Source of the DNA: an uncultured Massilimicrobiota sp.
Lineage (GTDB): Bacteria > Bacillota_I > Bacilli_A > Erysipelotrichales > Coprobacillaceae
Assembly (NCBI GenBank): GCA_944325245.1
Contig: CALUZM010000016.1
Span: forward strand, 1 to 39,030
DNA length: 39,030 nucleotides
Direction: 5' to 3'
Position numbers and translations under genes: made by a program. Positions 25,563 through 32,767 of this stretch are shown piece by piece. Within the stretch, counting starts at the first letter, position 1, and each line of letters begins with the position of its first letter. The notes below the pieces were generated by a model. That model was not told where the DNA came from. It saw nothing but the letters and a program-made list of their open reading frames with translations, and searched no databases.

Positions 25563-26693
25563 CTACTCCAATCTTGATTTTTCTATCACATAAATATTAT
25601 CATTGTCTTTGAGACCATCTGACATTCTAATCTTACCATCTTCTAATAGCCAGATAGCTTCAACACCATCCAATGAATTGACCAACTTCAATCCTTCTTC
25701 ATATTCCATTAAAAAAACTGCCGAACTCAAGAAATCAGCCAAACCACTATCTTCTGTAATAATGCTGACGCTTCTAAAATGAACAGCTGGATACAACGTT
25801 TCCGGATCAATCAAATGATGGTATCTAACACCATTAACATCTTGATAAAAACGCTGATAATCCCCACTTGTCACAATGGATTCACCCTGCACAACCAATA
25901 CAGCTTCATTTTCACTATCTGGGTCATCTGCACTTGCTGCATAATTACCATCTTGTGGTGATTCAATACCGACACAGAATTTATCTGCACAATCATCCAG
26001 ATAAAATTCTCCCTCTTTTTGAATCTTTCTTTGCCCATGACTGGCCACATTACCACCACCACTTAACAAGAAATTATCAACACCCATTTCAATTAATCCA
26101 TCTTTAATCAGTTCAATCGCATAACCCTTAGCAGTTGCTCCTACATCAATAGATACCAGAGCATCATTGATATAGACTGTTTTCTTCTTTTCATCAATTT
26201 CAATACTATCAATACTTGTATGCTGATTGGCTTTTTCTAATTCCTCATCACTTGGCACTGTACCGACACCATCATGACTTTCTGCTTCTTCACGATAATC
26301 ATGCCAGATATTAATAACACTTCCAAAAGCAATATTCACTTTAGAAGAAATCTTTCGATTTCTTTCAATACTTAAATTTAATAAATCAATCAAAGGTTGA
26401 TCTACTTCAATGGCTTTCTTTCCTGCATTATCATTAACTGTCTTTAAATTATTCATACCATTATATGTATTATATTTATCAAACAACTGATCATAATAAT
26501 TCAACTGTTCTTCAATATAATCACATTGTTCATTAAATTCTTCTTTACTACTGACATAAGACATATAAGTCGTAATGGTATCAAAAGGCCCTGTAATATA
26601 ATGATTCATCAATTCATATTTCTTTGAACACCCTGTCATGACCATCATCATTGACAAAGATAATAAACTTAAGACTAATTTCTTCAATTTCAT
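25563..26693 (-). CDS. apbE: FAD:protein FMN transferase (ApbE), lipoprotein
   Basis: The 376-residue product has a lipobox signal peptide (LSLLSLSMMMVMTGC), so it works outside the membrane. ApbE enzymes take FMN from FAD and attach it to a Thr or Ser of exported flavoproteins. Visible family motifs are the YITGPFDTITTYMSY start of the fold, DVGATAKGYAIELI (the usual form is DLGAIAKGYA), FLLSGGGNVASHGQRK and the metal-binding region GESIVTSGDYQRFY followed by HHLIDPETLYP. The neighbouring upstream gene encodes a likely substrate, the PplA-like lipoprotein. The start is ATG 26693 after a weak AACGGTG. A TATAAT 12 bases upstream is too close to serve this start well, so read-through from pplA is more likely. 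Confidence 0.92.
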   Translation of the reverse strand: MKLKKLVLSLLSLSMMMVMTGCSKKYELMNHYITGPFDTITTYMSYVSSKEEFNEQCDYIEEQLNYYDQLFDKYNTYNGMNNLKTVNDNAGKKAIEVDQPLIDLLNLSIERNRKISSKVNIAFGSVINIWHDYREEAESHDGVGTVPSDEELEKANQHTSIDSIEIDEKKKTVYINDALVSIDVGATAKGYAIELIKDGLIEMGVDNFLLSGGGNVASHGQRKIQKEGEFYLDDCADKFCVGIESPQDGNYAASADDPDSENEAVLVVQGESIVTSGDYQRFYQDVNGVRYHHLIDPETLYPAVHFRSVSIITEDSGLADFLSSAVFLMEYEEGLKLVNSLDGVEAIWLLEDGKIRMSDGLKDNDNIYVIEKSRLE

Positions 26694-26734
26694 CACCGTT
26701 TTTCATTATAACAACAAACAACAAAAAAAACCAC

Positions 26735-26767
26735 AAAAAAAGTCATGATTTTTTTCATGACTTTTTC
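26735..26767. terminator. Hairpin terminator between pplA and apbE
   Basis: AGTCATGA and TCATGACT form an eight-base-pair stem, flanked by A and T runs on both sides. On the minus strand it ends pplA with seven T. Some read-through into apbE is plausible. Confidence 0.75.
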
Positions 26768-26773
26768 ATCATT

Positions 26774-27703
26774 TTACTGTAAATTTTCTCCAGCTTCTGC
26801 CATTGCAGCTTGAATATCATCAATAACGATTGTACATCCAGCAGCTAAATCAGAACCAGTTTTTGCAGCTTTTCCACCATGATAATCCATAGTTTCAACA
26901 TTAGCGATTTCTTCTAATGTTTTTCCAGTAGCCCATGCTTTATAAGCATCGATTTGTTCATTCCATTCTTTACCAATAGCTGAAGAACCTTTCATACCAT
27001 ATTTTTCTTTCTTTTCGTATTTAGATAAAAGATTATCTCCTGTTGCTTCTGTATCTTGTTGTGCACAATCTACCCAAGACCAAACGATTTTACCGTCTTT
27101 ATCTACTGCAACAGAAGCAGTTGTTGTGTTCACTTTACCATCAGAAATAGTTGTAACTTCTCCAGCACCCATTTTGTCTGCACTAACATCTGTCATGTTT
27201 TCTCCAGCTTTAGCAACTGCAGCTTGAATATCATCAATAACGATTGTACATCCAGCAGCTAAATCAGAACCAGTTTTTGCAGCTTTTCCACCATGATAAT
27301 CCATAGTTTCAACATTAGCGATTTCTTCTAATGTTTTTCCAGTAGCCCATGCTTTATAAGCATCGATTTGTTCATTCCATTCTTTACCAATAGCTGAAGA
27401 ACCTTTCATACCATATTTTTCTTTCTTTTCGTATTTAGATAAAAGATTATCTCCTGTTGCTTCTGTATCTTGTTGTGCACAGTCAACATCGATGTAATTT
27501 ACTTTACCATCTTTATCTAACCCGACAGTAGCCATAGTAGTATTTACTTTTCCATCAGAAATAGTAGTTACCATACCAAATCCTGCTTTTGCATATTTAG
27601 CTCCTTCTTCCCCGCTAGTAGTTGTTTCATTTTTCTTACCACATCCTACTAAAACAGTAGCTACTAAAGCAGATGCAGCTAAAACTTTTAATAATTTGTT
27701 CAT
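26774..27703 (-). CDS. pplA: PplA-like extracellular flavoprotein lipoprotein with two tandem domains
   Basis: From ATG at 27703, seven bases after GGAAGGAGA, the product is 309 residues. The signal ends LVATVLVGC with the lipid anchor at Cys21, then a short Thr/Ser/Glu linker. Two copies of a 138-residue domain follow (about 41-171 and 179-309). Each contains KYGMKGSSAIGKEWNEQIDA and ends with DLAAGCTIVIDDIQ. This resembles Listeria PplA, which ApbE-type enzymes flavinylate; Thr153 and Thr291 in D-L-A-A-G-C-T are the likely FMN sites, related to the D-x-x-S-G-A-T acceptor. It would pass electrons outside the cell to acceptors such as iron or quinone-fed chains. The apbE gene follows directly. 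The link to PplA comes from memory of the family; the acceptor residue is inferred. Confidence 0.82.
   Translation of the reverse strand: MNKLLKVLAASALVATVLVGCGKKNETTTSGEEGAKYAKAGFGMVTTISDGKVNTTMATVGLDKDGKVNYIDVDCAQQDTEATGDNLLSKYEKKEKYGMKGSSAIGKEWNEQIDAYKAWATGKTLEEIANVETMDYHGGKAAKTGSDLAAGCTIVIDDIQAAVAKAGENMTDVSADKMGAGEVTTISDGKVNTTTASVAVDKDGKIVWSWVDCAQQDTEATGDNLLSKYEKKEKYGMKGSSAIGKEWNEQIDAYKAWATGKTLEEIANVETMDYHGGKAAKTGSDLAAGCTIVIDDIQAAMAEAGENLQ
26804..27067. repeat. Direct repeat copy A (264 bp) inside pplA
   Basis: By eye this is base-for-base identical to 27218-27481, offset by 414 bases (138 codons). It covers most of each flavin-binding domain but not the domain starts. The lack of even synonymous changes points to recent duplication or gene conversion. 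Confidence 0.9.
27218..27481. repeat. Direct repeat copy B (264 bp) inside pplA
   Basis: Partner of the copy at 26804-27067. The flanks on both sides differ, so the match ends sharply. Confidence 0.9.
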
Positions 27704-27743: not shown

Positions 27744-27772
27744 ATTATACCTTGAAAGCGGTTGTATATCAA
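27744..27772 (-). promoter_or_regulatory. Sigma-A promoter of pplA
   Basis: TTGATA (27772-27767) and TATAAT (27749-27744) are 17 bases apart. Predicted transcription start is about 27737. Confidence 0.85.

Positions 27773-32201: not shown

Positions 32202-32767
<566 letters not shown>

Follow-up and report, generated by a model that had tools for sequence, protein, structure and literature searches.

A two-domain FMN-bind2-type lipoprotein encoded beside apbE in Massilimicrobiota, with a predicted family-wide variant of the flavin acceptor motif

Listeria PplA and enterococcal Cad are two-domain FMN lipoproteins encoded together with an ApbE in an extracellular electron transfer context, and they carry SGAT at both flavin sites (PMC7074142). 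The same fold is known from the solved chains of CPE2226 (PDB 3O6U) and A3DHT5 (PDB 2KZX), which have one domain each with the canonical TGAT and SGAT, and Thr119 of 3O6U, a sequence that contains DIDVITGAT, is the conserved flavin position (PMC10339131). RnfG and NqrC are ApbE substrates with one FMN_bind domain each, where the acceptor loop precedes the last helix. A further group, FMN-bind2, was described by Huang et al. 2024 (PMC11334425); in the available text of that paper it includes a two-domain Erysipelotrichaceae protein, its members were found by BLAST and had been missed by Pfam, and double flavinylation is a prediction. That portion of the paper contains no altered motif, no census of ApbE pairing and no division between Rnf and Ndh2.

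The locus described here is located in a contig of 39,030 nucleotides (the window) from an uncultured Massilimicrobiota sp., and encodes a lipoprotein that is most probably a member of the FMN-bind2 subtype, since its two domains, its host group and its invisibility to Pfam all agree with the description of that subtype (PMC11334425). A confident two-domain model is a further likeness; FMN-bind2 proteins have two or four domains, and four are found in the relative at locus L120. Like PplA and Cad, to which it is likened by description, it is encoded with an ApbE, but its sites differ from SGAT and the window genome has Rnf. The position of the acceptor loop before the last helix is shared with RnfG and NqrC, but the NqrC chain reaches a Z score of only 3.8 and the RnfG of the window genome has the canonical motif.

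The lipoprotein gene (26774..27703, minus strand, stop codon included) was defined from the open reading frame, a family profile, an AlphaFold model and structural matches, and its product, MNKLLKVL...GENLQ, has 309 residues and 96% identity to the nearest named relative found, in Massilimicrobiota sp. An134. A lipobox, LVGC (27641..27652, minus strand), is present with the predicted lipidated Cys21, which is invariant in alignments A1 and A3. Domain 1 comprises residues 37–169 (27197..27595, minus strand), as judged from the secondary structure of the model and the internal repeat, and domain 2 residues 175–306 (26786..27181, minus strand), from the model secondary structure. The first-pass annotation had read one copy of DLAAGCT in each domain, with Thr153 and Thr291 as acceptors, and both the motifs and the numbering were confirmed: motif 1 covers residues 147–153 (27245..27265, minus strand), and motif 2 residues 285–291 (26831..26851, minus strand). 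The two domains are repeated with a period of 414 nt, of which 290 nt are 98% identical (copies at 26784–27073 and 27198–27487) and another 69 nt are 78% identical. As whole protein domains they show 89% identity, most other members of the family having 46–75% between their domains, and the near identity suggests a recent duplication or gene conversion.

Single-sequence searches gave little information on the family. Scans with Pfam and NCBIfam produced no meaningful match, the Pfam model FMN_bind (PF04205) did not match the lipoprotein at E ≤1 and matched 6 of 35 relatives weakly (best E 5.6e-4), and phmmer with the single sequence found no match in PDB; a TraR match (22 of 250 bits) was discarded as chance. 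The identification therefore needed profile and structure evidence. A profile built from the 35 relatives found 2KZX with an E value of 6.6e-8, the altered site falling on DAISGAT, and hhalign against canonical FMN_bind proteins, a set in which four of the five sequences come from the window genome, aligned the same site (82%, E 1.1e-5). An AlphaFold model made with 63 sequences shows two domains with a pLDDT of 91.7 and a high pTM of 0.86. FMN-bind2 proteins are described as having extended β-sheet faces that pack into a pseudo-symmetrical unit, and at the level of secondary structure the strands at residues 37–49, 52–62 and 68–78 of the model, together with its pTM, would be compatible with such an arrangement. 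With Foldseek alone nothing was found at E 0.001 or better, and the highest-ranked entries, with E values of 0.017 and above, belonged to IscU. In a second structural comparison 3O6U and 2KZX ranked first with a Z score of 8.8 each, above IscU with 7.0 or less, and an IscU-like function was accordingly set aside.

The lipoprotein does not contain the canonical D-x-x-[ST]-G-A-[ST], and Cys or Val replaces the Ala throughout the family. In a census of 351 domains from 184 loci, the residue preceding the acceptor was Cys in 178 (51%), Val in 143 (41%), Thr in 15 and Ala in 6; Ser (170 domains) was more frequent than Gly (124) at the Gly position. The first position is Asp or Glu in 97% of the domains, and the acceptor column, scored in 349, holds Thr or Ser in 347 (99.4%) and ranks 4th in conservation among 135 columns, so that DLAAGCT should not be due to chance. 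By this census the altered motif is, judged on sequence, a trait of the whole family and not of the window organism, and would represent a variant, shared across the family, of an ApbE substrate type that is already known. The earlier proposal that it marks a distinct class of ApbE substrate is thus supported, in the form of a family-wide [DE]xx[SAT][SG][CV][TS] site. Some members (G049 and G064) pair a domain that has the canonical SGAT with one that has [GS]VT, which suggests that the versions of the motif are interchangeable; according to a review, a mutant with Val for the motif Ala keeps about 50% of its flavinylation and exchange of Thr for Ala abolishes it (PMC12052999). A literature search with the motif strings returned unrelated papers only. 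Since Cys immediately precedes the acceptor in both domains, the flavin could be imagined on this Cys and not on the Thr, but Val takes its place in about 41% of the relatives, Thr/Ser is almost never lost, and the chemistry of ApbE is described for Ser/Thr only (PMC12052999), making such an attachment extremely improbable.

In some relatives of the order (loci L037, L038 and L039) two adjacent genes each encode a single-domain lipoprotein, with DVLAGCT and DVRSGCT, as if a two-domain protein had been split.

Downstream of the lipoprotein gene by 77 nt, and on the same strand, lies apbE, encoding an FAD:protein FMN transferase that is itself a lipoprotein (25563..26696, minus strand; PF02424, 197 bits). 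It is the only ApbE in the genome, reads IDVGATAKGYAIE, and when aligned with solved ApbE structures keeps VTSGDYQRF...RYHHLIDP. In 61 of the 80 named loci apbE lies inside a 4-kb flank, always on the same strand, with a median offset of 71 bp and with any motif type. When 315 genomes of the order were counted, with a strong family match set at E 1e-15 or better, ApbE was present in 115 of the 123 genomes with the family compared to 121 of the 192 others, related genomes not being independent in these numbers. Most of the 8 family genomes where ApbE was undetected are incomplete, the exceptions being G026 (100% complete) and G088 (96%).

The genus g42 is the most direct case, as its 13 genomes have no FMN_bind over the cut-off and no RnfD/NqrB, and its family members carry motifs of the SVT/SVS type. 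ApbE is found in 7 of the 8 g42 genomes with the family, and the assembly of the remaining one is 88% complete. The 5 genomes without the family all lack ApbE; in 4 of these 5 the protein search was also empty. A search of eight g42 genomes for DUF2271 gave no match, and the lipoprotein family is the only ApbE substrate candidate found in g42 in a search that covered FMN_bind, RnfD/NqrB and DUF2271. From this co-occurrence the altered site is very probably a real ApbE substrate. It might instead be that the FMN_bind fold has been kept and the covalent flavin lost, the motif having decayed and ApbE serving other proteins such as RnfG; the normally conserved Gly and Ala of the motif are replaced throughout, the ApbE of the window genome does have other, canonical substrates, and in two relatives (G213 and G214) one domain is without any acceptor. 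However, Thr/Ser at 99.4% while the neighbouring residues vary is not expected of decay, the adjacency to apbE persists across Bacillota, and in g42 the family is the sole substrate candidate found and tracks ApbE, so a loss of this kind is distinctly unlikely. The first-pass description of a PplA-like lipoprotein with two domains and an ApbE partner is supported, and the double flavinylation that it proposed is probable.

The two relatives with a missing acceptor, at loci L172 (G213) and L184 (G214), read DLKDHVD and DLVDYVG at this position, and another domain of the same locus reads DLKSGCT.

It had also been proposed that the ApbE is co-adapted to the altered motif, from its DVGATAKGYA, and this was not supported. 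The Thr of DVGATAKG is about equally frequent in pairs with Cys motifs (11/34) and with Val motifs (7/29), thus without association to motif type, and it follows the clades on the ApbE tree, which is a quick version and not a careful search. Canonical FMN_bind sites occur in the window genome in a lipoprotein and in RnfG with DTISGAT and in RnfD with DTSTGAT, and its sole ApbE must modify both altered and canonical motifs, which counts against co-adaptation. The ApbEs adjacent to the family do share N-x-A instead of the D-x-T seen in most others (residue 120 is N in 64/65, residue 122 is A in 54/65), but this also follows clades, as the unpaired ApbEs of G021 and G029 from the same clade have it too, and D-x-T is retained in genomes whose SVT substrates are unlinked. 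Co-adaptation of the enzyme is on these grounds unlikely.

The solved ApbE chain 4ifu likewise has NPA in the stretch aligned to residues 120–122. The window genome encodes an RnfD of 621 aa (contig C49, L043:259-2121, plus strand) with two FMN_bind domains fused at its C-terminus, reading DTSTGATMTS and DTSTGATLTT; the NqrB-like site of this RnfD is DVATKATPIT, and the RnfG gene comes next.

The neighbours of the pair in the window were named by eye as polA, dnaE, apbE, a plsC-like gene, DHFR and thymidylate synthase, and ndh2, eetAB and the menaquinone genes that accompany PplA in Listeria are not among them. The lipoprotein-apbE pair is here unlinked to rnf, and the donor has to be judged from relatives; as rnfC is present in the window genome, the Rnf complex is most likely the electron donor, ahead of the Ndh2 route of Listeria. 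Fifteen named loci are situated in rnf operons, and all of them have GCT in both domains. Another nine adjoin an Ndh2-like pyridine-nucleotide oxidoreductase, all nine with SVS, SVT or TIT, and these loci also carry genes for DHNA polyprenyltransferase and polyprenyl synthase, as found in extracellular electron transfer loci. Cys for Ala could on this basis be a specific adaptation, with GCT domains tuned to Rnf and SVS/SVT domains to the Ndh2/menaquinone route, and the types within one protein nearly always agree (45 with two Cys and 44 with two Val domains among 99 proteins). The independent lineages are few, however, with roughly two in which GCT goes with Rnf and one or two on the Ndh2 side. 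On the tree of the 99 proteins the Cys state has changed at least five times, and a count at the genome level gives 30 genomes of the order that have Rnf but no Cys. With few lineages and these 30 genomes the Rnf/Ndh2 split is only a lead; we find a tuning to the donor rather doubtful, and hold the same doubt of its working through, for instance, an altered flavin environment. Similarly tentative, and in our judgement rather improbable, is the broader proposition that ApbE has a large class of substrates, invisible to Pfam, with a relaxed [DE]-x-x-[SAT]-[SG]-[CV]-[TS] motif, in which the Cys or Val before the acceptor reports, and perhaps sets, whether a protein is wired to Rnf or to Ndh2/menaquinone.

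Taken as a carrier, the FMN-bind2-type lipoprotein is likely to be a membrane-anchored extracytosolic protein with FMN predicted on Thr153 and Thr291 through the neighbouring ApbE. It would first be exported and lipidated, and ApbE would then move FMN from FAD onto both Thr residues in phosphoester bonds, at acceptor sites reading Ala-Gly-Cys-Thr in place of the usual Ser/Thr-Gly-Ala-Thr; the enzyme should tolerate the altered motif and be strict only for the hydroxyl of the acceptor and for the acidic residue that opens the motif. The two domains might pack as one unit with two flavins, which would accept electrons from a membrane donor, here most likely the Rnf complex, with an Ndh2-like dehydrogenase as a further donor in relatives, and hand them to an external acceptor. 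The surface protein is thus predicted, very probably, to hold two cofactors derived from vitamin B2 to carry electrons out of the cell.

A large survey of protein flavinylation from 2021 relied on PF04205 and [ST]GA[ST]-like motifs (PMC8238504). Despite its frequency in Bacillota and its pairing with apbE, the lipoprotein family escapes both, and flavin-based electron export has for this reason probably been undercounted. The family also accounts for the ApbE of g42, a genus otherwise without FMN_bind or RnfD/NqrB. Its natural variants GCT, SVT, SVS, GTT and GAT make the real specificity of ApbE testable, and through the Rnf/Ndh2 split a connection of the motif to the electron donor can be tested as well.

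Upstream of the lipoprotein gene there is a putative σ70-like promoter, TTGATA-17-TATAAT (27744..27772, minus strand), which agrees with the consensus at 11 of 12 positions and is a consensus match only. A terminator-like hairpin with a 13-bp stem and a T tract is located between the lipoprotein gene and apbE (26736..26767, minus strand). Similar intergenic hairpins were found in 48 of 62 lipoprotein-apbE pairs, against 0.6 expected from shuffles, and the hairpin is kept in 13 of 13 near relatives (the pairs in L001–L017) with differing stem sequences; it is probably an attenuator that would hold the level of the enzyme below that of its substrate. Elsewhere in the window, at 32267–32767 on the minus strand, is a serine-recombinase-like ORF of 166 aa, apparently a short resolvase or a fragment.
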